Below the pieces are notes generated by a model, which worked only from the letters and a program-made list of their open reading frames with translations, ran no database searches and had not been told where the DNA came from. A DNA stretch of 38,473 bases, from the IMG/VR virus record IMGVR_UViG_3300030012_003944, positions 18,912 through 57,384 of that record; one strand, given 5' to 3'. Source of the stretch: a virus. The translations under genes and the position numbers were made by a program. How positions within the stretch are numbered: position 1 is the first letter of the stretch; each line of letters begins with the position of its first letter. This document shows positions 2,726-37,903 of the stretch, one piece after another.

Positions 2726-3193
2726 ATGAAAAAGATATTACTATTATTATTGCTATTGCCTACTATACTTCTAAGTCAGACACGACAATTCCGTCCCGAT
2801 AAACAAACATATATTGAAGCAATCACTGGTATAGGTATTGTTGGGGACTGGGATATAAGTAATCGTCCCTTTACCTCCTTGTCTATAGGTAGGACAGTTG
2901 ATTTTGGGGATTATAGTTTAATGGATATATCCGTAGGATTGTCATATCCAATGATTGCTAGTGCAAAGTTCGGCTTAGGTTCTTATTATGGTAAAAAAGA
3001 GAATACCTCTATTGTTTTAGGTATAAGAGTAAGGCCTCTAACTGCTTATTCTCAAGTACGTACTAAAATTAAAGATAAAGGGTTTTTAACTGTTTCTGTT
3101 GAATGGGGAACAGGAGGAGATAGAGTTGTTGGGTATACTAATTTATTTAATATTGGGTGGTATTGGCCTTTAAAATTTAAGAAAAAGAAATGA
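2726..3193 (+). CDS. secreted or outer-membrane-like protein
   Basis: Residues 1-18 are a classic Sec signal peptide (MKKILLLLLLLPTILLSQ) with likely cleavage near LLS-Q. The mature part is rich in alternating strands with Gly and aromatic residues (GIGIVGDWDISNRPFTSLSI, then SVEWGTGGDRVVGYTNLFNI) and ends in basic KFKKKK, like a small beta-barrel or periplasmic beta protein. It overlaps the lipoprotein gene by four bases (ATGA). Secretion suggests that it alters the infected cell's envelope, for instance by superinfection exclusion; this is inference. Confidence 0.75.
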   Translation: MKKILLLLLLLPTILLSQTRQFRPDKQTYIEAITGIGIVGDWDISNRPFTSLSIGRTVDFGDYSLMDISVGLSYPMIASAKFGLGSYYGKKENTSIVLGIRVRPLTAYSQVRTKIKDKGFLTVSVEWGTGGDRVVGYTNLFNIGWYWPLKFKKKK

Positions 3194-3744
3194 TAAAATT
3201 AAAAATTATTGCTATAAGTATAATATTATGTTTTGTTTCTTGTACTAAAATTGATGATAATGGGTTTAAAGTTTATAAAATAAAAAAAGGTAAACATCGT
3301 TCTACTGTAAAAATTCAACATACAAAAAAAGATTCGTTTGATATTCAAGTTAAATTTAATGAATCTGCAAAGTATACTTCTCAACATCCCGAAAATCAAT
3401 TAGATGTAAATAAAATATGGGGTGTAAGTGATTGTGGAACTACTCATCATAAAAATTCTATACGATTTGGGTGGCGTTGGGATTTAAATCAAGAACAAAT
3501 TGAGATTTTGATGTATCGTCGTTTATTAGGTGAATTTGATTATAAGCAATTGGGGTATGTAAATCCTGGAGATATTAATTATATGTCATTAAATATAACT
3601 GATAGTCATTATTATATGTATTTAAATGGGATTGTAGATTCTATAAGTAGATGTTGTGATGAACCTAAAAGAAGATATTTTTTATACCCTTATTTTGGGG
3701 GAACTGAAAAAGCTCCTCATGATATTATTATAAAAATAAAATAG
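3190..3744 (+). CDS. lipoprotein of unknown function
   Basis: A short basic start and hydrophobic span (MIKLKIIAISIILCFVSC) place a lipobox cysteine at residue 18. The following T-K-I-D-D resembles the acidic lipoprotein export signal that sends Bacteroidota lipoproteins to the cell surface. The mature part is beta-rich with several His, Cys and Trp residues (GVSDCGTTHHKNS, RFGWRWDL, RCCDEPKRRY). Translationally coupled to the secreted protein before it, so the two likely act together in the envelope. No family recognised. Confidence 0.75.
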   Translation: MIKLKIIAISIILCFVSCTKIDDNGFKVYKIKKGKHRSTVKIQHTKKDSFDIQVKFNESAKYTSQHPENQLDVNKIWGVSDCGTTHHKNSIRFGWRWDLNQEQIEILMYRRLLGEFDYKQLGYVNPGDINYMSLNITDSHYYMYLNGIVDSISRCCDEPKRRYFLYPYFGGTEKAPHDIIIKIK

Positions 3745-3751
3745 TTGCTTA

Positions 3752-3768
3752 TATATTTATAATAAAAT
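3752..3768 (+). promoter_or_regulatory. late-gene motif ATATTTATAATAAAATA
   Basis: The same 17-base string, allowing a one-base shift, precedes the genes at 15608 and 32758. Shorter forms of the motif (ATATTTATAA) precede 5663, 9310, 12985 and 27873. Its reverse complement contains TATAAATA, the T4 late promoter octamer, but on the + strand the reading is TATTTATA. It is either a promoter of this phage or an RNA element near starts. Confidence 0.5.
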
Positions 3769-3773
3769 AAATA

Positions 3774-4064
3774 ATGGCAACATTTACATTTCATAATCCT
3801 TCTGGGTCTGCTTATTTTGCTATGGAAACAACAAGGTCTTTCGATACAGGTACTTATCTTACTGGTACTCCTAAATATGCATCGGGCTCATTTTCTCAAT
3901 TTACTGGGTCTAATTCTAATTCTATTGTTCAATCTGATTTTATTTTTGGTCAAGTAGTACCTCCTGGCACATCCTCGTTTGTATTTTCTAATGCTGTTAC
4001 TATACCTGTTGGGAATGTGTTTTTTAGAGGAACAGGGGAATATAATTTAATTATAGAGGCATAG
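3774..4064 (+). CDS. small structural-type protein
   Basis: A 96-residue beta-rich protein with Ser/Thr/Gly/Phe-rich composition (GSAYFAMETTRSFDTGTYLT, SSFVFSNAVTIPVGNVFF). It has no Cys and no signal peptide, and the composition matches phage fibre or decoration proteins. It sits behind a late-gene motif and just before the two LamG genes, so a role in a receptor-binding appendage is plausible. Confidence 0.6.
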   Translation: MATFTFHNPSGSAYFAMETTRSFDTGTYLTGTPKYASGSFSQFTGSNSNSIVQSDFIFGQVVPPGTSSFVFSNAVTIPVGNVFFRGTGEYNLIIEA

Positions 4065-4073
4065 TATATACAT

Positions 4074-4835
4074 ATGGCAATTTATAACATAACAGCTGAG
4101 CAACTAAGAGGTAGAGGTATTTTAAATTCATTTGAAATAGCTGCTGGTGGGGCTTTTAACACTTACAGTGTAGCATTTGATGGTACTGATGATCATGTAG
4201 ATTGTGGTAATGATTCAAGTTTACAACCAACTGATGAATTTTCTGTAAGTGCTTGGTTTAAATCAGCTGTTGTAGGAAATTCAACTAATAATTTTATATG
4301 GAGTAAACTATATTTTAGACTCTTGATTCTAGGAACTAGTGGTAGAATAGGATTTGTTGTTCATAGGAGTGCTGGTCAATCAACAGCTAGATATACCCCT
4401 GATGATGGTACAAGTTATTCAGATGGTAATTGGCATCATGTAGTAGCAACATTTAAAAAGAACGACCCAGCAGCTGCTTCGTATAAAATATATGTAGATG
4501 GTGAATTAAAGGTAGATGCAGGAGGGTATAATAGTAATGTTTTTGCTAGTAGTGATTCATTTAAAATTGGTGCTAAAAATGTTTCTGGTACTACTGGTAT
4601 GAATGGTAATATTGATGAGGTTGCATTTTGGAAAACTAAATTAACTTTAACTGATGTACAAAACATTTATAATAGTGGTATACCTAATGATATAAGTTCA
4701 TATAATCCTATATCATGGTGGAGAATGGGTGATAATGATGGAGGAACGGGAACAACGGTAACAGATCAAGGTAGTGCCGGTAATAATGGTACATTAAATA
4801 ATGATACTGTATTCGAAGAAGATACACCGAGCTAA
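4074..4835 (+). CDS. LamG/concanavalin-like virion adhesin, copy 1
   Basis: The N-terminal 40 residues (MAIYNITAEQLRGRGILNSF) form a conserved cap shared with the next gene. Residues about 35-210 are a LamG-type lectin sandwich: YSVAFDGTDDHVDCG, FSVSAWFKS, then DGNWHHVVATF, KIYVDGELK, GNIDEVAFWKTKL. A C-terminal block ISWWRMGDNDGGTGTTVTDQ follows. LamG domains in phage tail and fibre proteins bind surface glycans. No catalytic residues are visible. A tail-associated or decoration adhesin is the best reading; the position in the particle is unknown. Confidence 0.8.
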   Translation: MAIYNITAEQLRGRGILNSFEIAAGGAFNTYSVAFDGTDDHVDCGNDSSLQPTDEFSVSAWFKSAVVGNSTNNFIWSKLYFRLLILGTSGRIGFVVHRSAGQSTARYTPDDGTSYSDGNWHHVVATFKKNDPAAASYKIYVDGELKVDAGGYNSNVFASSDSFKIGAKNVSGTTGMNGNIDEVAFWKTKLTLTDVQNIYNSGIPNDISSYNPISWWRMGDNDGGTGTTVTDQGSAGNNGTLNNDTVFEEDTPS

Positions 4836-4847
4836 TTAATATAAAAA

Positions 4848-5645
4848 ATGGCTATCTATAACATAACATCTCAACAATTAAAAGGTCAAGGTATTTTAAA
4901 TTCGTTTGAATTAGCTAGTGTTGGGTCGTTTTCTAATGTTTATAGTGTAGCATTTGATGGGGTTGATGCTCGTACTGAAACTAGTGTAAATTATTCTGAA
5001 TTTGATGGAGGAACAAAAGGAACATTTTCTTTTTGGTTTAAATGTAATGGTAATCATAGCAACCAGCACGATAATGTAGTTAAAGTTGGGCCTGCATATG
5101 GAAGAAGGACATTTCAGATTGGGGTAACCTTTTCAACAACAACAAGCTTTGCATTTAACATGGCACAGAGTGGTAATGGAAGGAGAGTATCTGTAAACAA
5201 CATAGGTAATTTTAGACAAGATGATTTATGGCATCATATTTTATTTTGTGTAGATTTAAGTTTATCACCAAATGAAAATAAAACAAAATTATTTGTAGAT
5301 GGTAGTGAAGTAACATTAAGTGGTGCACTATCCTTAAGTAGTTTTCCATCGCATCCGGCTCCTTTAACAGTTGGAGGAACTACACAATCAAATAAATCAT
5401 TTCAGGGTAATTTAGATGAAGTTGCTTTATGGAGTGGAGTAGATTTAAGAGATAACGTAGCAATTATATATAATAGTGGTGTTCCAAATGATCTCAATAG
5501 TAATGGATTAACTATTCCAACAACATATTATAGAATGGGTGATAATGACGGAGGTACAGGTACAACAATAACAGATAATGGTACTACTAATTATGATTTA
5601 GATTTTGTGTCTAATCCTATATTTGAAGAAGATGTCCCAAGTTAA
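4848..5645 (+). CDS. LamG/concanavalin-like virion adhesin, copy 2
   Basis: Paralogue of the preceding gene: the same cap (MAIYNITSQQLKGQGILNSF), VYSVAFDG, a LamG core (GTFSFWFKCNGN, DDLWHHILFCVDLS, KLFVDGSE, GNLDEVALWSGVDL) and the same end (RMGDNDGGTGTTITDNG ... FEEDVPS). The core has diverged much more than the cap and the C-terminus. This fits constant attachment ends with a variable carbohydrate-binding middle. Spaced 12 bases from copy 1, so co-expressed. Confidence 0.8.
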   Translation: MAIYNITSQQLKGQGILNSFELASVGSFSNVYSVAFDGVDARTETSVNYSEFDGGTKGTFSFWFKCNGNHSNQHDNVVKVGPAYGRRTFQIGVTFSTTTSFAFNMAQSGNGRRVSVNNIGNFRQDDLWHHILFCVDLSLSPNENKTKLFVDGSEVTLSGALSLSSFPSHPAPLTVGGTTQSNKSFQGNLDEVALWSGVDLRDNVAIIYNSGVPNDLNSNGLTIPTTYYRMGDNDGGTGTTITDNGTTNYDLDFVSNPIFEEDVPS

Positions 5646-17197: not shown

Positions 17198-20100
17198 ATG
17201 GCAACAGAAGTTAATTTAATAAGTACTGATAGTTTTGATCCACAAGGTTATAGTAGCCAAGATAATAACTTAGTATCTTCTCAAGAGATTAATACATCTT
17301 TTTCTACAAAAAGCTATATAGAACTTAATATATATAATACTAATAATGAATTACTATTAAATGATTTATCATTTTCTCAATATCGTATTATAAATGATGG
17401 ACAATCCTCTTTAACTAATGAAATATCTAAAATTGAATTAAATCCTGAAAATATTTTGCTAAGCTATGGATTTGATCAAGGAGAATATATTACCTATTTT
17501 AACTTTTTTAATAAACAAATAGGATCAGAACTTCAAAATTTATATATATCTGAAATATCTTCTGATAGAACAGAAATTAGATTAGATAGTAATAACTTTT
17601 CTAATCTTGATTTAACTGATCAAACTCTTGAGTTTATTCAACAAAGAGAAAATAGTGAGTATTTTATAGACTTTTATGTAAATTTTGGAAATAATCAACT
17701 TTATATAGCTAATAATATTAGACTAGATAATAGTGATCCTTCTAATCCAACTATATTAATTAAACTATATAACCCTCTTCCTTTAGGTTTTAATTTAAAA
17801 GATACTTTATGGGTTGTAACTCTATTAGAAGAATCTAGAGCTTATCAAGTAACTTTTGAGGATGAAATAATAGAAATTAATGATGGTACTATAACAATTA
17901 GTGGGCCTAATTTTAATATAGATTTAAAGGATCAAGTAAATAATTCAACAGGTTTACTTTCTTATAATAATTTAATTTCTGCTAAACAAACAAGCTCATT
18001 AGATCAAATAAATAATTTATTAAGTAAAAAAGAAATTGATATAAATGTTGATTATACCCAATTCTCAGAATTTATTCATTTTAGCTCAGCCCAAACTCGC
18101 TTAGAAAATTTTTATTATAAAATAGGTTTATTAGAAAGTTATTCTTCTTCTTTAGCTACTTTAGATAAAATAACTTCTACCCCAAATCTTAGTAGTAGTA
18201 AATCTAGTTTTGAAGGAAAAATAAGTGATATTATTAAAAATTTTGATGGGTATGATTATTTTTTATATTATGAAAGTAGTTCTATAGCATGGCCTAAAAC
18301 TACTTCTACTAAACCTTACCAATTAGCTAAAAGAGATAGTATAGAAGTAAGTAATTGGTTTGGTAGTATAAATGAAAATAGTCCTATTTATGGTGGATTA
18401 ATACTTTCAGCTTCATTATTTGATAATGAGAACAAAGATAATTTAAAATTTTCTATCCCTGAATATTTAAGAGATGACCCAGATAATTCCCAATATGAAC
18501 TATTTGTTGATATGGTTGCTCAACATTATGATAATATTTGGATATATCATAAAGAATTAACTCAAAAATATGATGCTGATAATCGTTTAGAACAAGGTAT
18601 ATCAAAAGATATAGTTGCTGATGCTATCAGAGATTTTGGAATCAAATTATACCAAAATAATTTTTCAAATGATGATTTATATACAGCATTTTTAGGATTA
18701 ACACCTGATGGAAGTTTATTCCCTTTCCCAAATATAACAGGATCTTTACCTACACCTACAGGATTTGAATATGTTAATACTTTAATATCTGCTTCTAATG
18801 ATATTATACCGTTAGATGATGTAAATAAGTCGTTATATAAACGAATTTATCATAATATACCATACTTATTAAAAGCAAAAGGTACTCTACCTGGTTTACG
18901 CGCTCTTATAACTTCTTATGGTATTCCTGATACTATATTAAGGATAAATGAATATGGGGGTAAAGATAAAATTAATGTAAATGATTGGGATCATTGGCAA
19001 AGAGAATTTAATTTTGCTTTTTCTACAACAGGAAACAATTTTATATCTTCTTCTTGGCACATTAATAGTGATTTCCCACCCTATACTGGATCAGGTGGTC
19101 TACCTGATGTCCCAAATCAAATAGCATTTAGATTTAAAACTAATGGTTTACCTACATCTAATATCCCTCGATCTCAAAGTTTATGGCATTTAAGTGGAAG
19201 TGGAGTTGGTGAAAGTCTTATAGCTTTAAGATATGAAGGTACAGGATATATTAGTGAATCTTATAGTGGTTCAATTAAAGATCCTTTTTGCGAATATGCT
19301 TATTTAGATTTCTATCCAGATTTAGAAACTTCCTCTTCAATTTCTGCTAGTGTATACTTACCATTTTTTGATGGAGGATGGTGGTCTATAGCAGCAAGTA
19401 GAGATGATACTTCTTCTAAAAATTTTACACTAAGAGCAGCTAATAAACTTTATGATGAAGGAGATAATAGTACAGAAATAGGTTTTATATCCTCATCTGT
19501 AATAAACCATCCTACTCGTATAGGAAGTTGGAGAGAAACAGGCTCAATAAGTTATTTTCCTGCTTCTTCTAGTGTTTTAACTAATTATACTCCTTTTTCA
19601 GGATTATATCAAGAAGTTAGATACTATCTGAATCCTATAAGTGAAAATGTATTTAAGGATTATACAATGAATCCCCATTCAATTGAGGGTAATACAATAA
19701 ATTCATCACCAAATGAATTAGTTTTTAGAGCTTCTTTAGGAGGAGAATTATATACTAGTTCTTTTTCTATACATCCTAAAATAACAGGTTCATGGGTTGT
19801 AACCCAATCTTTTAGTGGAAGTAATGGTGGATTTAGTAATTTTAATTTTAATAGTACTCCAACTTTTATATCTAATGCAGAAACATTTTTTGCTGACCAA
19901 CCAATAGCAGGTATAAGAAATATAGTTGGAGATAAAATTAGAATAGAAAATAACGTAATACCTGAGGGTAATACTTTATCACCTTTTATGTCATTATCTC
20001 AAATGACAAATATATCTCAAAGTTATACCCCTGGTATAAATTATTTAGAGGTAGCATTTTCTCCACAAAATGAAGTAAATGAAGATATAATAAATCAAAT

Positions 20101-25687: not shown

Positions 25688-26134
25688 ATGAACTGGACAT
25701 ATAATAAAAAACAAATTGAGGATCTTTCTCATTTTCCAAATAATACTTACGGATTTATTTATAAAATAACTCATGTTCCTACTAATAAATCTTATATTGG
25801 TAAAAAAGTATTATTTCATAATCGTAAAGTAAAACTAACTAAAAAAGATTTAGCCCTATACGAAGGTGTAGTAGGTAGAAAACCTGCTTATAAAATTGCT
25901 ACTAAAGAATCAGACTGGAAAACATATTGGGGGTCAAATAAACCACTCTTAGAGATATTAAAATCAGAATCTCAAGAAAATTTTACTAGAGAAATTTTAA
26001 AATTTGCATCAACAAAAAAATTATTAACATATTACGAAACACAAGTTTTATTTGTATATAGAGTTTTAGAAGAACCTGAAATGTATTATAATGATAACAT
26101 TTTAGGTAAGTTTTTTAGAAAAGATTTTGAGTAG
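25688..26134 (+). CDS. GIY-YIG-type endonuclease
   Basis: 148 residues. The YGFIYKIT (21-28) and SYIGKK (35-40) strands form the GIY-YIG core; the likely metal-binding Glu is E117 in LLTYYETQV. The middle block (ESDWKTYWGSNKPLLEIL) is shared with Seg-like phage endonucleases. Such enzymes cut DNA and often behave as free-standing homing endonucleases. Here it sits at the junction between the tail genes and the replication genes, a typical homing position. Confidence 0.8.
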   Translation: MNWTYNKKQIEDLSHFPNNTYGFIYKITHVPTNKSYIGKKVLFHNRKVKLTKKDLALYEGVVGRKPAYKIATKESDWKTYWGSNKPLLEILKSESQENFTREILKFASTKKLLTYYETQVLFVYRVLEEPEMYYNDNILGKFFRKDFE

Positions 26135-27872: not shown

Positions 27873-28622
27873 ATGATAAGTCTTATTCAATTACTAAAAG
27901 AATCCCAAAAAACCCCTAAAGTTATATTTATGGCTGGACCTGCAGGAGCAGGTAAAACATATGTATTAAATCAGTTAGGATTACAAAACTTTAAAGTAAT
28001 TAATGTAGATGATGTATATGAAAAATTGCTTAAAGATACTTTAGGTAAAGAAGATTTTGGCTCTATGTCACCTGAAGAATTATCAACAGCGGGTAAACTA
28101 ATGGGTAAAGCTAGGGTTGTTACTAGAGAAAAAGAAACTCAAGCATTAGAAAATCTTGAAAACATAATAATTGATGGTACAGGTGCTGCCTCAAGACCCT
28201 TACTTAAGAAAAAACAACAATTAGAAGATTTAGGGTATAATACATTTATGGTTTTAATTTATGTATCTCCTATGGTATCTTTAAAAAGAAATGCTCAAAG
28301 AGGTAGAAGTTTACCTACATCAGCTGTTTTAGCTAGTTGGGATGGTGTAATGAAAAATATAAATTTATATAAACAAGAATTTGGTAGTAATATTACTTTA
28401 ATAAATAATGATCCTGAAAATGCTGATAAGTCTTTTGATCCTAATTCTATTATAAAATTATTCCCACAACCTAAAGGTAAACCTAAAACCCCAGAGGAAA
28501 GGGCTAAATCAAAAGCTAAAAAAGAACAAATAAACCAGAATATAAAAGCTCTTTTAAATGCAGAACGTGAATTTGATACTTTAAATGTAGCAAAACAAAA
28601 AATTAATGGATTCGTTAACTAG
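27873..28622 (+). CDS. P-loop kinase, zeta-toxin/AAA_33-like, with capsid-leader-like N-terminus
   Basis: 249 residues. Leader MISLIQLLKESQ contains LLKE, similar to T4-type prohead protease sites. Walker A is GPAGAGKT (22-29). NVDDVYE (44-50) is the acidic residue block after strand 2, IIIDGTG (97-103) the second nucleotide-binding strand, and LKRNAQRGR (136-144) the arginine-rich lid. This set is that of zeta-toxin-like and polynucleotide-kinase-like small-molecule or RNA kinases. The C-terminus is basic (KTPEERAKSKAKKEQINQNI). Substrate unknown. Overlaps the following gene by 17 bases. Confidence 0.75.
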   Translation: MISLIQLLKESQKTPKVIFMAGPAGAGKTYVLNQLGLQNFKVINVDDVYEKLLKDTLGKEDFGSMSPEELSTAGKLMGKARVVTREKETQALENLENIIIDGTGAASRPLLKKKQQLEDLGYNTFMVLIYVSPMVSLKRNAQRGRSLPTSAVLASWDGVMKNINLYKQEFGSNITLINNDPENADKSFDPNSIIKLFPQPKGKPKTPEERAKSKAKKEQINQNIKALLNAEREFDTLNVAKQKINGFVN

Positions 28623-31581
28623 ATCACTTATTAAAGATCTTTTACCTGAAAGTATAGAAGGTAAAGAGGTTACTGCTGTTTTTGGTGGTGGGTTTAAACC
28701 ACCAACATCTGGACATCTTTTAGTAATTCAAAAAGCACTTCAAGACCATCCTGAAATAGATAATATTATAATTTATGTTGGTAGTAAAGCAAGAGATGGG
28801 ATTACACAAGATCAAGCATATAAAATTTGGAATGAATATTATAAATCTTTAATTGATAAACCAGTTAGAGTAGAAAAATCAGTTTCCCCAATTGGAGATA
28901 TTTATAGATATGCTAAAGACAACCCTGAAGATTCTATATATTGGATTATAGGAGCAAGAGAAGGTAGAGAAGATGATTTACAAGACATATCATTAAGATC
29001 TGTATCTATAGACAAATACCCTAATTTAAATTTAAAAACAATATCTACTCCAGATAGGGGTATGAGTGGTACTAATGCTAGACAAGCATTAATAAACAAT
29101 GATAAAGAAGCTTTTAAATCTTTTATACCTAGCAATGCTAATCAAGATGAAATTTGGAATATCTTAACTTCTACACCTTTAAATGAAGGTGACCCTAAAA
29201 AAGGTACAGGTAAAAAACCTAAAGGGTCAGGTAGACGTTTGTATACAGATGAAAATCCAAAAGATACTGTTAAAGTTAAATTTTCTACAAGACAAGATAT
29301 AATAGATACTTTAAATAAAACTTCATTTAAATCTAAATCACATGCTCGACAATCTCAAGTAATCAATTTAATACATCAAAGAGTAAGAGCAGCTTTAAGT
29401 AGAACAAAAGATCCTAAAAAGAAAGCTAAATTACGTTCTGCTTTTGAATATATTAAAAAACGTAAAGAGGCATCTAAGAAAAAAACTCAACGTTTAAAAA
29501 AACAAAAAACTAATGAAGCTATAGATACTAATTTTGATAAGGTTAAATTTTATTATGATTATTATACTAATGTTTCCCCATCAACTTTTGGAGTTACTAT
29601 GGAAGAAAACAATATTAAAATAAGTAACATTACAGAACCCTATTCTTCTAATTTTGGTCCTGAAAATGTAAAACAAATCCCTGTAAATCAAAATTTAGAA
29701 GAAAGCTTAAATGAGGATATTTTAGAAAAAACGTCTTTAGTTTTACCAAGAGGCAAAAAAATATATTTACAAGCAGAAGAAGAAGATTATGATAGAGGAA
29801 TTATAGTTGAATTAAGTGAAGAAGGAGGATATAAAATTAACTATTGGTATGGTGATGATGCTAAAGTATATCCTGTTGAAGTTGAAGTTGATGGAGAATC
29901 AATTAAACCTGATGCTAAAGAAGTTTACATGAAATTCCACCCATATTTAAAAAAAGAAAATATAGATCCTAAAGTTCAAGCTAAACATAAAGGTAAATCA
30001 TCCCCTTTTGGTTCAGCATATAAACCAGTAAATGAACAAAAAACTACACATGAAGTTATTGCTAAAGGAATAGTATTTGAACCTAAAAACATTACTATAA
30101 ATGTAGGAGATACTGTTAAATGGGTAAATGAACAAGGAGCACATAATGTTAACGGAGAAAAATCTCACGAAAGAAATAAAGATAACCCTGAAAGTTTTGG
30201 TAATAAAGTAGGAACAGGGTGGACATATAAATTTACATTTACTAAACCTGGATTATATAAATACCACTGTGACCCACATCTATCAGCTGATATGGTTGGG
30301 ACTGTAAAAGTAAAAGGTAAAATAGATGAAGGTGATACTTATGAAAAAATGGCTGCTAAAGGAAAAAAAGCAGGCAGTTTAAAACAAGGCACAGTTAGAA
30401 AAAGATTAAATATACCTAAAGATAAAAAAATTCCATTATCACTAATTAATAAGGAATTAGCCCGTTTAAGAAAAATGGATAAAGATAAAAAGAAAAAAGG
30501 GGTACAATTAGGAGATAAAAATCAAAAATACTATAAAGCACTTCAATTATCTAAAACATTAAAAACTACAACTAATGTAAATGAAACTGGTTTAGAAATA
30601 GCTAAAAAAAATATGGATGATTATAAAAGATCTAATCAACTAAATGAAAATGCTACATACTCTAGTCATATAGATTATAAACAAGAAATTATAGATTTAA
30701 CAAAACATATGTTAAAAAAGGGCATGAATATTAAACCTTTGCCTAAAGTAATATTTAAACATAATGATAAAGAAAATGCTCAAGAATTTTTAGGTAGAAC
30801 TGCTTATTATAATCCTAATAGTATGACAATAGTTTTATATACCGAAGGTAGACATCCTAAAGATATAGCTAGATCATTTGCTCATGAAATGATTCATCAC
30901 ATTCAAAAACTAGAAGATAGATTAGAAAATATTACTACTACTAATACTCTTGAAGATGATCATTTAAATAATATAGAAAGAGAAGCATATACAAGAGGTA
31001 ATATGGTCTTTAGAAACTATACAGATGGTAAAGATGGAGAAGAAGTTACTAGTTTAAATGAGAAAGAAAAACCATATAAACACAAGTATGGGTTTGATAA
31101 AAATCTAGGTAAAGATCCTTTTGGATTAAATCAGTTTGCTAGAGAATTAGCTAGTTTAGAAGAAAATGAAGATAATGAAGGTTTTCGTTCTTATAAAAGC
31201 ACATTTGCTCCTCAAGTTAATATTACAATAGTTTTTAAAGAATATGATAAATATAAGGATTTAAAATCTTTATTTAAAGAATATGGGTATGGTTTTTATT
31301 CACCTAAAACTAAAACTATAGTAATAGATGGTGAAGTTTTTATAGACTCTAATTTGACTTTTAATGATTTAAAATTTGTTGAAGCTCATGAAATATCTCA
31401 TTTAATAATGAACCATTCAGGTCCTCGTTCTGATAAGGATGAATTAGATGCAGATTTAGGAGCCTATATTTTATTAAAAAGTCAAAATTTACCTGTGGAT
31501 AACTTAAAAAAACAATTTAAATTTAGACATGGAATAGAATTTAATGAAAAATTACTTGATCGTGTTAAAGATAAATTTTAA
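28606..31581 (+). CDS. 991-residue multidomain (poly)protein: nucleotidyltransferase, basic module, cupredoxin, two HExxH metallopeptidase domains
   Basis: Residues 1-18 are an amphipathic leader. Residues 21-190 form an HxGH-type nucleotidyltransferase (GGGFKPPTSGH 27-37; MSGTNARQAL 153-162). Residues 195-300 are a Lys/Arg-rich module (GSGRRLYTDENPKDTVKVKF). Residues 305-475 hold two unknown modules. Residues 478-570 are a type-1 copper domain with ligands H513, C555, H558 and M563 (YHCDPHLSADM). Residues 578-655 are a basic helical module. Residues 682-815 contain HEMIHH (760-765). Residues 820-991 contain HEISH (928-932) with ELDADLGAY (946-954). Modules are separated by PLNE 194, KTNE 304, SLNE 370, PVNE 477, NVNE 660, QLNE 681 and SLNE 820. 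These look like protease sites, so mature products may be separate. Fusion order and processing are unusual and inferred. Confidence 0.8.
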   Translation: MDSLTRSLIKDLLPESIEGKEVTAVFGGGFKPPTSGHLLVIQKALQDHPEIDNIIIYVGSKARDGITQDQAYKIWNEYYKSLIDKPVRVEKSVSPIGDIYRYAKDNPEDSIYWIIGAREGREDDLQDISLRSVSIDKYPNLNLKTISTPDRGMSGTNARQALINNDKEAFKSFIPSNANQDEIWNILTSTPLNEGDPKKGTGKKPKGSGRRLYTDENPKDTVKVKFSTRQDIIDTLNKTSFKSKSHARQSQVINLIHQRVRAALSRTKDPKKKAKLRSAFEYIKKRKEASKKKTQRLKKQKTNEAIDTNFDKVKFYYDYYTNVSPSTFGVTMEENNIKISNITEPYSSNFGPENVKQIPVNQNLEESLNEDILEKTSLVLPRGKKIYLQAEEEDYDRGIIVELSEEGGYKINYWYGDDAKVYPVEVEVDGESIKPDAKEVYMKFHPYLKKENIDPKVQAKHKGKSSPFGSAYKPVNEQKTTHEVIAKGIVFEPKNITINVGDTVKWVNEQGAHNVNGEKSHERNKDNPESFGNKVGTGWTYKFTFTKPGLYKYHCDPHLSADMVGTVKVKGKIDEGDTYEKMAAKGKKAGSLKQGTVRKRLNIPKDKKIPLSLINKELARLRKMDKDKKKKGVQLGDKNQKYYKALQLSKTLKTTTNVNETGLEIAKKNMDDYKRSNQLNENATYSSHIDYKQEIIDLTKHMLKKGMNIKPLPKVIFKHNDKENAQEFLGRTAYYNPNSMTIVLYTEGRHPKDIARSFAHEMIHHIQKLEDRLENITTTNTLEDDHLNNIEREAYTRGNMVFRNYTDGKDGEEVTSLNEKEKPYKHKYGFDKNLGKDPFGLNQFARELASLEENEDNEGFRSYKSTFAPQVNITIVFKEYDKYKDLKSLFKEYGYGFYSPKTKTIVIDGEVFIDSNLTFNDLKFVEAHEISHLIMNHSGPRSDKDELDADLGAYILLKSQNLPVDNLKKQFKFRHGIEFNEKLLDRVKDKF

Positions 31582-31583
31582 TT

Positions 31584-32129
31584 ATGGCTAACCTATTTGA
31601 TCTATATAAACTAATTAAAGAAAATGATGTATCTGCATATACTATTTATTTAGACATGGATGGTGTAATAGCTGATTTTGATCAACGATTTTTAGATTTA
31701 TCTGGAATGACCCCAAATGAATATAGAGATAAATATGGTATGGACCAATTTTGGGATTTTATAGATGAAGAAAATAAAGTAAGATTTTGGGCAGGTATAC
31801 CTGTGATGCCTGGAGCTAAAAAATTAGTAGATTATGTTTCACAATATGATTATGAGATACTAACTGCCCCTTCTATTAAAAAACAATCTAGGTTAGGAAA
31901 AATGGTATGGTTGCGTAAAATTCATTCTAATTTATTTCCTGATACACCAAAAGTAAATTTTAAACCTGCTAAAGAAAAACATCAAGTAAAACCAACTCTT
32001 ACTAAAACAGATATTCTTATAGATGATAGAGCAAGTACTATAGATACTTGGAATTCTTCTGGTGGAACAGGAATATTATATACATCCGCAGATGATGCTA
32101 TTAAACAACTTAAACAATTAGGATTATAA
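31584..32129 (+). CDS. HAD-family 5'(3')-deoxyribonucleotidase-like phosphatase
   Basis: 181 residues. Leader MANLFDLYKLIKEN carries LIKE. HAD motif I is YLDMDGVIADFD (22-33; nucleophile D24, acid D26). The later ILIDDRASTIDTW is motif IV. The cap region (MTPNEYRDKYGMDQFWDFID) and FWAGIPVMPGAKKLVDYV are typical of NT5C-like nucleotidases. The catalytic lysine is probably in TAPSIKKQSRLGKMVWL. Likely dephosphorylates nucleotides. TAATG overlap with the next gene. Confidence 0.8.
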   Translation: MANLFDLYKLIKENDVSAYTIYLDMDGVIADFDQRFLDLSGMTPNEYRDKYGMDQFWDFIDEENKVRFWAGIPVMPGAKKLVDYVSQYDYEILTAPSIKKQSRLGKMVWLRKIHSNLFPDTPKVNFKPAKEKHQVKPTLTKTDILIDDRASTIDTWNSSGGTGILYTSADDAIKQLKQLGL

Positions 32130-32757: not shown

Positions 32758-33423
32758 ATGAAAGATAACTTTGATTTAAAGAAATTTTTAACGGAAAATA
32801 AAACCATTGAAAATTCTAATCCTTATTTAAAAGAAGAAAAAGAAATATCAAAAAAAGAAGAAAAATCTCTTAAAAAAGTTTCTAAACAACTAAAAAAATC
32901 AGTTAAAGCTCATGATTTACAAGCTAAAACCATTGATAAAGCTTTAAAAGAAGAATCAACAGACCTTAAATCTAAAATTCGTGAAATGATTATTAACGAA
33001 TTAAGTGAAGTAATGGATCCTAAAGATGAAGAGGAAGAAATAGATTATGAAGATTATGAAGAGCAAAAAAGACAAGCAGAAGAAGAAGCTGAAATAGCAG
33101 CTTATCTTGGTAGTATACCATTTGAAGAATCTTTAGACGAAGCTAAAGAAGATGAAGAAGAAATAGAAACTGATGAATCCGAAGACACAGAAGAAGTACC
33201 TGAAGAGGAAGAAACTGAAGAAATAGAAACAGAAGAAAAACCTGAAACTGGAGGTGGATTAGAAGATATAGCTGCTGACATGGAAGGTGATGAAGGTGAT
33301 CTTATGGACCACCTAATCTCAGCTTTAAAAGTATCTAAAGCAATGGACAACGAAAAACTTACTACTCAAATAGGAAACACCTTAAAATTCTTTGTAGGTG
33401 AGTACATTGGAGGAGAAGAATAA
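32758..33423 (+). CDS. highly acidic core/internal head-type protein
   Basis: 221 residues. Leader MKDNFDLKKFLTENK is close in pattern to T4 capsid-targeting sequences and contains FLTE. A Lys-rich coiled coil follows (KKEEKSLKKVSKQLKKSVKA), then an extremely acidic middle (about 85-175, e.g. EEIETDESEDTEEVPEEEET), then a C-terminal helical domain (LMDHLISALKVSKAMDNEKL). This composition is typical of prohead scaffold/core or internal proteins. Internal L/x-E sites (LSE, LDE) are frequent, but so are glutamates. Confidence 0.65.
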   Translation: MKDNFDLKKFLTENKTIENSNPYLKEEKEISKKEEKSLKKVSKQLKKSVKAHDLQAKTIDKALKEESTDLKSKIREMIINELSEVMDPKDEEEEIDYEDYEEQKRQAEEEAEIAAYLGSIPFEESLDEAKEDEEEIETDESEDTEEVPEEEETEEIETEEKPETGGGLEDIAADMEGDEGDLMDHLISALKVSKAMDNEKLTTQIGNTLKFFVGEYIGGEE

Positions 33424-34443: not shown

Positions 34444-34910
34444 CAAAACAAGAGCTACAAAGTAGATTAAAGATTTTAATTAAACAGGTGTATGCTAATA
34501 AAACTATTACACCTGAGGAAGCTGTTCAATATGATGAACTAACTAAGTTTCCTGAATTAAAAGCTGTTATTGTAGATCTTTTAACACCTGAATATGATAA
34601 CTTTGTAGCTTCAATTGATTGGGTTGCACCACGTCCTTCAACATTTAGAATTAATTTAAAAAATGATCAATTATTTTACTTAATTTATGGTAAAAGAAGT
34701 TTTATAGCTCAAATTGAAGGTAAAAAATACTATTTATTAAATCTTCCTGAAGAACAACACGCTGCTGAAGCAATAGCTCGTATTTTAAGATTTGGAGTTA
34801 AACCTGAAGAAGGAACAGAAGATGGTATGGGTGGAGATTTAGCAACAGAAGAACCACCAGCTGAAGAACCAGCAACAGAAGAACCACCAACCGAAGAACC
34901 AGAAACATAA
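34440..34910 (+). CDS. 156-residue conserved-type protein with acidic repeat tail
   Basis: N-terminal leader-like helix (MTKQELQSRLKILIKQVYAN). A compact alpha/beta domain follows (PSTFRINLKNDQLFYLIYGK RSFIAQIEGKKYYLLNLPEE). The low-complexity tail is built of E-E-P-P/A-T/A units (ATEEPPAEEPATEEPPTEEP). ATGA overlap with the previous gene, TAATG with the next. No family recognised. Confidence 0.6.
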   Translation: MTKQELQSRLKILIKQVYANKTITPEEAVQYDELTKFPELKAVIVDLLTPEYDNFVASIDWVAPRPSTFRINLKNDQLFYLIYGKRSFIAQIEGKKYYLLNLPEEQHAAEAIARILRFGVKPEEGTEDGMGGDLATEEPPAEEPATEEPPTEEPET

Positions 34911-35470
34911 TGGGAAATTTTGATTTAAGAAAATTTATAATAGAAGGTAAATTGTTTGAAGCAGCAATGGAATGTCCCGCTGCTACTCAAGATGTAGCAT
35001 TAAATACTGCTAATAGAGATAGAGCTATACAAGCTGACTTTATTAATTATGGCCCATTAAATGTAGAAGAACCTGGTGATTATTGGAAAGATATAGCTAA
35101 AAAATGGAAAACAACATTTAAAGCTGCTTTTAAATCACGATGTGGTAATTGTGTAGCATTTGATATTTCACCAAGAATGTTAAAATGTATACCTGGTTTA
35201 ACTTCTGAACCTGTAGAAGAACCTAATGCAAGAGAAGATATTGATAAAGCTTTTAAAGATAATCCTAAAATAGCAAATTTAGTTAAAAAAGGTGTTTTAG
35301 GGTATTGTTGGATGCATCATTTTAAATGTCATTCTGCAAGATCTTGTAATACATGGGCAGCAGGTGGTCCTATTAATAAAGATAGTGTATCTTATGATTG
35401 GCAAGAAAGAAATGAAAAAGCCGCTTTAAACCCAGAACCTATAGACCCTGATCTTTATAAAGACGATTAA
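34910..35470 (+). CDS. cysteine-rich protein with HiPIP-like spacing
   Basis: 186 residues. Leader MGNFDLRKFIIEGKLFEAAM contains FIIE and KLFE. The body holds ATQDVALNTANRDRAIQADF and INYGPLNVEEPGDYW, a block I recall from marine phages. Cysteines: RCGNCVAF (C-x2-C), MLKCIPG, then LGYCWMHHFKCHSARSCNTW AAGG. The order C-x2-C-x-aromatic ... G-Y-C ... C-x2-W resembles high-potential iron-sulfur proteins, though a zinc site is equally possible. No start ambiguity (TAATG). Confidence 0.65.
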   Translation: MGNFDLRKFIIEGKLFEAAMECPAATQDVALNTANRDRAIQADFINYGPLNVEEPGDYWKDIAKKWKTTFKAAFKSRCGNCVAFDISPRMLKCIPGLTSEPVEEPNAREDIDKAFKDNPKIANLVKKGVLGYCWMHHFKCHSARSCNTWAAGGPINKDSVSYDWQERNEKAALNPEPIDPDLYKDD

Positions 35471-36456: not shown

Positions 36457-37467
36457 ATGACACGTTTAACAAATTTAATAAAAGAAGTATTATCTACTCA
36501 ACCAAAAAAGAAAGATTGTAACTGCGGTTGCAATACTTGTGATAATGTAGGTAATGAAGGTGTGTTATTAAATGAAAATAAAGCCCCTAAACAAATATTA
36601 TCGGAAAATCTGCAATATCATGTGCAAAATAAACTACCACTAACCGAAAACACATTCCGTTATGGTTCCGAATCTTTCCTTAATTTATGGCAAGAAGCAC
36701 GTTATTTATATTTGCGTGAAATTATCCATGTAAATGATGATGATAAAGAAATTTTAGAAGAAACTGACTTAGGTAACTATGGAATGTATGAAGGTAAAAA
36801 AGTACCTTTAGGTTTACCTATGGAAAATGTAGTTAATGAGTCTTTTAATATAGGTGATAAAGTAAAGTTTGTTGGTGATAAGTCTAGTTTTAAAAACTTA
36901 GACCCAAATAAAATATATATTATTGATGATATAATACGTGACACACTTTTTAATGATGTGCGATATATAGTTGGTGAAGAGCCTCTAAAAGTAGATGATA
37001 TTCAACTTGCTGAATCAGAAGATTTAGACAAAATTCGAAAAGAAGTAGAAAAAATAGCCCAAAATTCTCCAGGTAAAGGTTGGACAAAAAAATCTATAGA
37101 TCAAGAAGTTAATAGAAGATTCCAACAGTTTTTAAATAGAAAACCTATGGATGAATCAGAAGATTTAGATGAAGCAGCTAAAAAGAAAAAGAAAAAAAAT
37201 CCACCTATAGGAAAACCAAAACGTGGTGGACCTAAAGCATATTATGTTTATGTTAGAGATCCTAAAACAAAACGTATTAAAAAAGTTACATTTGGTTCTG
37301 GTGGATTAAAAGCAAAAATTAATAACCCTAAAGCAAGACGAGCTTTTTCAAAAAGACACGATTGCCCTAATAAAAAAGATAGAACAAAAGCATCATATTG
37401 GTCTTGTAGATTACCTCGCTATGCTAAACTATTAGGTTTAAAATCATCCTTTAGTGGATTTTGGTAA
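36457..37467 (+). CDS. multi-module head-block protein with cysteine cluster and basic YWSCR domain
   Basis: Start at ATG 36457, right after the preceding stop; an upstream ATG (36439) overlaps that gene. Leader MTRLTNLIKEVLS is followed by DCNCGCNTCDN, a tight cysteine cluster. A series of modules is separated by LLNE, ILSE, PLTE, VVNE, QLAE and PMDE. The C-terminal domain (GGPKAYYVYVRDPKTKRIKK VTFGSGGLKAKINNPKARRA, then RHDCPNKK, then SYWSCRLPRYAKLLGL) is a basic domain very common in marine T4-like phages, with paired Cys/His. Likely a processed virion protein binding DNA. Confidence 0.7.
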   Translation: MTRLTNLIKEVLSTQPKKKDCNCGCNTCDNVGNEGVLLNENKAPKQILSENLQYHVQNKLPLTENTFRYGSESFLNLWQEARYLYLREIIHVNDDDKEILEETDLGNYGMYEGKKVPLGLPMENVVNESFNIGDKVKFVGDKSSFKNLDPNKIYIIDDIIRDTLFNDVRYIVGEEPLKVDDIQLAESEDLDKIRKEVEKIAQNSPGKGWTKKSIDQEVNRRFQQFLNRKPMDESEDLDEAAKKKKKKNPPIGKPKRGGPKAYYVYVRDPKTKRIKKVTFGSGGLKAKINNPKARRAFSKRHDCPNKKDRTKASYWSCRLPRYAKLLGLKSSFSGFW

Positions 37468-37468
37468 A

Positions 37469-37903
37469 ATGGAAAGATTAAAAAAAATAGTTAAAGAAAT
37501 TCTTGCTGAAAAAAAGAGCAAAAGAGATAGATGTTTACGCATTGCTGATCGTAAATTTGACAAACCCTCTGCCTATAAATCAGGTGCTGTAGTTAGATGT
37601 AGAAAAGGTAAAATTTGGAAAGGTATAAAAGAAGAACAAATACGTGATGTAATTAAAGAATCTTTACGTGATTGGTTTAAAAAAGAAAAATGGGTTCGTA
37701 TTAATACACAAGGTAATATAACTGGCCCTTGTGGTACAATGAAAAAAGGTAAAGCTACAACTCGTTGTTTACCTAGAGCAAAAGCACAATCCTTAACTAA
37801 AGCTGAAAGGAAAGCTACAGTAGCTAAAAAAGTTAGAGGAGGTAAAAAAGGTAAACAATTTGTAAAAAATACTAAAAAAGCTCAATATAAAAAAAAGTCT
37901 TGA
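37469..37903 (+). CDS. basic cysteine-containing protein, probably virion-internal
   Basis: Start at ATG 37469 (MERLKKIVKEILAEKKSKRD), one base after the previous stop. Residues 20-50 (DRCLRIADRKFDKPSAYKSG AVVRCRKGKIWKG) form a first module. ESLRDWFKKEKWVRINTQGN then ITGPCGTMKKGKATTRCLPR AKAQSLTKAE is a second, resembling short WV(R/D)I...GPCG...C.P modules known in several large viruses. The tail is almost purely basic (KKVRGGKKGKQFVKNTKKAQ). Strong positive charge suggests DNA binding in the capsid. Confidence 0.7.
   Translation: MERLKKIVKEILAEKKSKRDRCLRIADRKFDKPSAYKSGAVVRCRKGKIWKGIKEEQIRDVIKESLRDWFKKEKWVRINTQGNITGPCGTMKKGKATTRCLPRAKAQSLTKAERKATVAKKVRGGKKGKQFVKNTKKAQYKKKS

Follow-up and report, generated by a model that had tools for sequence, protein, structure and literature searches.

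The window analysed here is a stretch of 38,473 nucleotides of viral DNA (IMG/VR record IMGVR_UViG_3300030012_003944, positions 18,912 to 57,384), and the virus appears to be a T4-like phage of bacteria. One open reading frame (ORF) on its plus strand, 28606-31581, begins with ATG and runs in a single, stop-free frame over 991 residues. A first-pass annotation, made from the letters alone, had delimited the same intact ORF and had described its product as a polyprotein that joins a nucleotidyltransferase, a copper cupredoxin and two HExxH metallopeptidases and delivers several small proteins with unrelated chemistry. Comparison with relatives points to cargo of the phage head that is probably cut by a T4-type prohead protease.

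Domains of the 991-residue chain

The motifs on which the first-pass annotation was based were found at their places: GGGFKPPTSGH at residue 27 and MSGTNARQAL at 153 in the nucleotidyltransferase, the complete type-1 copper ligand set His, Cys, His, Met (H513, C555, H558, M563), HEMIHH at 760, and HEISH at 928 followed by ELDADLGAY. All four listed domains are present, but the list was incomplete, as the chain also contains two basic modules rich in Lys and a pair of small, uncharacterized ones (Table 1). Profile searches matched the nucleotidyltransferase to the phage cytidyltransferase family phrog_3041 (9e-12), and its modelled fold matches NadD/PPAT (Foldseek, NadD 2.8e-6). It scores 15.4 bits against PF01467 (gathering threshold 21), with the GxFxPxHxGH and SGTxxR motifs present.

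The cupredoxin matched the Pfam family PF00127 with an E-value of 2.2e-17 and a score of 63.7 bits (gathering cut-off 21.2), and plastocyanins of the PDB with an E-value of 4e-12. The spacing of 42 between the His and Cys ligands is identical in all eight distinct cupredoxin copies found, and the axial Met is replaced by Gln only in the stand-alone copy. The equivalog cut-offs were missed, with 56.7 versus 87.85 for TIGR02656 (plastocyanin) and 51.8 versus 109.85 for TIGR02375 (pseudoazurin). At the sequence level, residues 478-575 are certainly a plastocyanin-type cupredoxin that belongs to neither named member, and the domain probably binds copper. A redox-protective or copper-protective role, for the DNA or for early infection, is a weak guess, made because superoxide dismutase (SOD) modules occur in sibling chains.

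Modelled with 68 sequences, residues 682-991 gave predicted local distance difference test (pLDDT) values mainly above 90 in both HExxH domains, which are joined by a disordered linker. The HExxH motif and the following Glu are invariant in 41 of 41 relatives for zincin domain 1 and in 40 of 40 for domain 2. Best fold matches were IrrE and selecase, with probabilities above 0.95 but E-values of 0.04 to 0.06; zincin 2 matched IrrE 3dti with a probability of 0.97 (E=0.04). The same domain reached 18.5 bits against the Peptidase M78 profile (gathering 22) and matched phrog_87 (2e-6); judged by these matches, it looks IrrE/M78-like, and it is the one HExxH domain for which a named peptidase family could be suggested. 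More than 20 other viral contigs (L133-L162) carry zincin 2 as a free-standing gene of about 138 amino acids that begins at the module edge; a tblastn search in named phages gave no hit. The full-length AlphaFold model was poor (mean pLDDT 49.9) and usable only for the nucleotidyltransferase, the helices of the SHARQS and GDTYEK modules and, weakly, the cupredoxin.

SHARQS and GDTYEK are the two basic modules, and they could bind DNA in the manner of the T4 internal proteins. At least 590 stretches in IMG/VR match SHARQS, often as a stand-alone protein with a start like a capsid targeting sequence (CTS), and no Pfam family covers it.

Table 1. Coordinates of the polyprotein gene, its modules and neighbouring genes in the window. 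Arrows mark predicted cut positions.
Feature	Position	Strand	Basis
Cargo polyprotein gene (putative), 991 residues	28606..31581	+	Pfam, phrog and IMG/VR matches
Residues 1-15, MDSLTRSLIKDLLPE↓, capsid-targeting-like N-terminal peptide, Psi-x-E end (LPE↓)	28606..28650	+	L/I-X-E rule, PMC9026906
Residues 16-194, HxGH nucleotidyltransferase (NadD/PPAT fold), LNE↓ at 194	28651..29187	+	phrog_3041 9e-12, Foldseek NadD 2.8e-6
Residues 195-304, helical SHARQS module, very basic (isoelectric point 10.8, net +25)	29188..29517	+	
Residues 305-370, small acidic YDYYT module, LNE↓ at 370	29518..29715	+	
Residues 371-477, DILEK module and HKGKSS linker, VNE↓ at 477	29716..30036	+	
Residues 478-575, plastocyanin-type cupredoxin, IDE↓ at 575	30037..30330	+	PF00127 2.2e-17
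Residues 576-660, basic GDTYEK module (isoelectric point 10.3, net +17), VNE↓ at 660	30331..30585	+	
Residues 661-681, short spacer AKKNMDD, LNE↓ at 681	30586..30648	+	
Residues 682-819, zincin domain 1 (HEMIHH at 760, conserved Glu791), LNE↓ at 819	30649..31062	+	
Residues 820-853, short spacer KPYKHK, LEE↓ at 853	31063..31164	+	
Residues 854-991, zincin domain 2, IrrE/M78-like (HEISH at 928, Glu946)	31165..31578	+	phrog_87 2e-6
P-loop (zeta-toxin-like) kinase, CTS-like start MISLIQLLKE↓	27873..28622	+	
HAD 5'-nucleotidase, CTS-like start MANLFDLYKLIKE↓	31584..32129	+	
Acidic protein, CTS-like start MKDNFDLKKFLTE↓	32758..33423	+	
Protein, CTS-like start MGNFDLRKFIIE↓; start of L027 homologue MKHVVPFINFINE↓	34910..35470	+	
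Protein, CTS-like start MTRLTNLIKE, Psi-x-E 13 versus 5.8 expected	36457..37467	+	
Basic protein, CTS-like start MERLKKIVKEILAE↓	37469..37903	+	

Module exchange and the motif at module edges

Loci with the gene were taken from IMG/VR contigs, and all their ORFs were searched with the modules into which the polyprotein had been cut; no close relative was found in cellular genomes. The relatives share the gene slot between the P-loop kinase and the HAD nucleotidase. Among 33 distinct polyproteins many architectures were observed, with modules added, lost or reordered, while the nucleotidyltransferase, wherever present, precedes all other shared modules. The domain order to which the first-pass annotation had drawn attention is real, but it is one of dozens, and we rejected a fixed order as the new point. 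Further modules comprise a Fe/Mn SOD with both Pfam domains, complete and with metal-ligand-type residues present (L024 344-540, L026 488-684, L030 617-813; together with the cupredoxin in L024 and L026), GNAT (L012, L024), a zeta-toxin-like kinase (L030), the 5'-nucleotidase (L010, L012, L036, L049), DUF192, DUF6267, DUF5661 and a Pol-beta nucleotidyltransferase. As in polyvalent proteins, several unrelated catalytic domains are carried on one shuffled polypeptide. Module identities within the same pair disagree strongly (in the comparison with L024, for example, the nucleotidyltransferases are 37% identical and the cupredoxins 85%), and modules therefore move horizontally. Ratios of nonsynonymous to synonymous substitution were low (about 0.02-0.35) in comparisons close enough to judge.

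One isolated phage, Flavobacterium phage immuto (NC_055915), has a syntenic homologue, gp088, of 907 amino acids, annotated as NadR-like NMN adenylyltransferase. It shares the nucleotidyltransferase and zincin 1; about 290 additional amino acids at its N-terminus and the absence of the cupredoxin and most other modules set it apart. A fusion of separate genes by assembly or sequencing, named beforehand as an outcome that would overturn the first-pass annotation, found no supporting point; long fused forms in the same slot, with the same neighbours, in many independent contigs and in the immuto genome rule it out, and we regard its chance as negligible.

The edges of the modules are marked by Psi-x-E, the motif cut by gp21, the prohead protease of T4; its background is 1.9% of positions. 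At the start of GDTYEK the left sequences are unrelated (DLIE, TINE, NVKE, PVKE, DIGE, KIDE, NLEE, NLKE, ELKE), and in 10 of 11 distinct contexts they end in the motif at the same residue and a single offset. Counted in the same way over distinct contexts and at single offsets, it precedes DILEK in 7/7, SHARQS in 18/27 and zincin 1 in 15/20, and closes the HKGKSS linker in 14/14 and the cupredoxin in 4/4. A test independent of assigned boundaries agreed: the motif occurred at 261 of 781 alignment breaks versus 163 at random (standard deviation 12), and at 310 of 856 versus 178 (standard deviation 11). Within the window protein, linkers carry 11 motifs in 207 residues and domain cores 5 in 784 (p=4e-5, an approximate value because we set the core boundaries ourselves, from profile hits and the model). 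The [ILV]NE form alone is in excess there (8 versus 1.3 expected).

This distribution bears on the possibility that the chain is a true polyvalent protein, packaged uncut and jointed by flexible linkers, in which Psi-x-E matters only at the N-terminus. The linkers are indeed predicted to be disordered, and in phage N4 the virion RNA polymerase is packaged without processing despite a peptidase domain (PMC5512222), but a motif concentrated exactly at the exchange points, behind unrelated sequences, and the occurrence of modules as independent proteins make an uncut chain improbable.

Terminal peptides, separate genes and head genes

In T4, gp21 cleaves after L/I-X-E (PMC9026906), strips CTS propeptides from internal proteins and cuts core proteins to pieces (PMC9026906, PMC5694885), and foreign proteins are packaged when they carry a CTS peptide of about 10 residues (PMC9026906). 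The polyprotein starts with the 15 residues MDSLTRSLIKDLLPE↓, which end in Psi-x-E, and most relatives have a similar form. Comparable starts are found in 7 of the 11 genes of its cluster versus 3 of 26 elsewhere in the window (p=0.003).

Fused and separate versions of the modules are equivalent. In many phages the nucleotidase is a separate gene that has an N-terminal peptide of its own, and in the four relatives named above it is fused into the polyprotein via FDE↓, LSE↓ or LRE↓; the kinase is fused via IKE↓ in one, L030. Stand-alone SHARQS genes begin with MISLNNILNEVLSE↓SDPK or VKFNTLVEKILLE↓ADPK, and the cut residue is that used within the polyprotein; their peptides end in VLSE↓SDPK, ILLE↓ADPK and EITE↓GDPK. 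L027 has a run of nine consecutive genes whose bodies differ (a cupredoxin and a kinase are among them, as are homologues of window genes 33622 and 34910) and whose starts read MKHIxxFxxFIxE or similar, very like MKTYQEFIAE of T4 ipII/ipIII. The same contig contains, at 2815-5446, five tandem paralogues with the start MKHIxxFxxFIxE and a GEGSxKPY body, and a similar body is a module of the L012 polyprotein.

The S77 protease (gp21 type) and gp23 are both encoded in the relatives with long contigs and in phage immuto; they were identified in G001-G003 and W01, and one such protease gene lies in L018. When their gp23 was aligned to that of T4, the E65-A66 pair of the T4 cleavage position was invariant (VTE↓A or VSE↓A), and the tails of the proteases contain LNE↓S or LNE↓G. 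In G002 the polyprotein gene lies upstream of the head genes.

A cytoplasmic multi-enzyme protein that serves auxiliary metabolism during infection and is never packaged would be compatible with the metabolic appearance of nucleotidyltransferase, nucleotidase and SOD and with the free plastocyanin gene of cyanophages. The CTS-like starts of the chain and its neighbours, the location in G002 and the prohead-protease motifs at the junctions argue against it, and we consider it slightly less probable than an uncut chain.

Alternatively, the embedded zinc peptidases might cut the chain themselves. Processing by embedded zincin metallopeptidases was proposed for polyvalent proteins by Iyer et al. 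2017 (PMC5512222), and both HExxH sites look intact. However, complete polyproteins that lack any HExxH (L032, L048, L062) retain the Psi-x-E junctions, zincin-free stand-alone modules share the same cut residue, and the junctions carry the gp21 motif, which is also the one at the gp23 cleavage site of these phages. Self-cutting therefore seems unlikely, to about the same degree as an uncut chain. The likely processing enzyme is a T4-type prohead protease, an addition to the first-pass annotation, which had named none.

A putative head-cargo polyprotein and its known counterparts

We estimate a probability of about 0.8 that the gene encodes a cargo polyprotein of the T4 internal-head type, which is directed to the prohead, cut by the prohead protease and ejected with the DNA. 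The 15 N-terminal residues would act as the CTS and carry the whole chain into the prohead core. There, the gp21-type (S77) protease would cleave after Psi-x-E in the disordered linkers, at about residues 15, 194, 304 or 370, 477, 575, 660, 681, 819 and 853, to yield about eight proteins. Among the freed pieces would be the nucleotidyltransferase, the blue copper protein, the two zinc-peptidase domains and basic DNA-binding-like pieces. These would remain with the packaged DNA, be ejected into the host and act in the first minutes. Recombination could add, remove or reorder modules without disturbing the processing, because the same short site bounds every module. The earlier proposal that one product gives rise to several small proteins gains support from module shuffling, the protease motif at the edges and the separate-gene versions; packaging, location in the virion, cleavage, ejection and the role of each module are what we infer from these patterns.

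Several observations weigh against such a cargo polyprotein. No virion proteomics was found for any relative, and the gp21 gene of the window's phage was not seen, since the contig stops upstream of the head genes. Psi-x-E is not in overall excess in the window protein (21 found, 18 expected), five motifs lie inside domains, one of them (WVNE509) within the cupredoxin, and the counts over motif contexts are not phylogenetically independent. Furthermore, the stand-alone cupredoxin of L027 starts with MKYIKVYEKFINADKDE, which has no perfect motif and is a poorer match than the starts of its neighbours, and one subgroup (L024, L032, L048, L062, L110) lacks the N-terminal peptide and opens with the nucleotidyltransferase.

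Phage T4 already supplies the pieces of this mechanism, and injected multi-domain proteins have been described under the name of polyvalent proteins. The internal head proteins of T4 (IPI, IPII, IPIII, Alt) likewise combine a short N-terminal peptide ending in Psi-x-E with diverse bodies in a phage that has the S77 protease and gp23, and ejection with the DNA is probable here too; they differ in having a single body with terminal propeptides, whereas the present chains carry several exchangeable bodies and internal sites. Polyvalent proteins (Iyer, Burroughs, Aravind 2017, PMC5512222) share the many unrelated domains, probable injection, zincins and shuffled architectures, as well as GNAT and Pol-beta-type nucleotidyltransferase domains, which occur here in relatives. 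In contrast, processing here points to the prohead protease and not to embedded zincins, the leading nucleotidyltransferase is of the HxGH (NadD/PPAT) type, and a word search of PMC5512222 did not find 'plastocyanin'. In phiKZ and SPN3US, a gp21 homologue matures head and ejection proteins at a short x-E motif with several sites per protein (PMC5694885); the extra sites there clear propeptides, whereas here they would release several folded enzymes. The cyanophage plastocyanins (petE; P-SSM2, S-SSM7) have the same PF00127 fold with about 40% identity, but are encoded by a free gene, while the cupredoxins described here are either modules of putative head-cargo chains or separate genes whose start is CTS-like.

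In the open-access literature searched, which misses most subscription journals, we found neither a phage polyprotein of several folded enzymes split by a prohead protease nor a blue copper protein or SOD within such a processed chain. To our knowledge, there is no precedent for these two proteins among likely injected proteins, which they would join if the cargo polyprotein is real. It would then be a natural counterpart of the engineered CTS packaging of foreign proteins in T4, with many enzymes on one chain that is cut in the capsid. Giant ORFs with changing architectures in such phages would be explained, and reading between Psi-x-E sites would offer a rule by which injected effectors could be found in the genomes of uncultured phages. 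More tentatively, T4-like phages may possess a recombinational cartridge system, in which any enzyme could be loaded onto a head-targeted polyprotein, released in the capsid and injected, with the blue copper protein and Fe/Mn SOD as a set that guards against oxidative or copper damage to DNA or to early infection; we regard this as possible but doubtful.

A scan for promoters and terminators in the window gave nothing informative. The ORF at 36457-37467, with its significant excess of Psi-x-E, is perhaps another multi-cut core or cargo protein. At 25688-26134, the PHROGs label 'NAD synthetase' looks wrong, as the other matches of this region are homing endonucleases.

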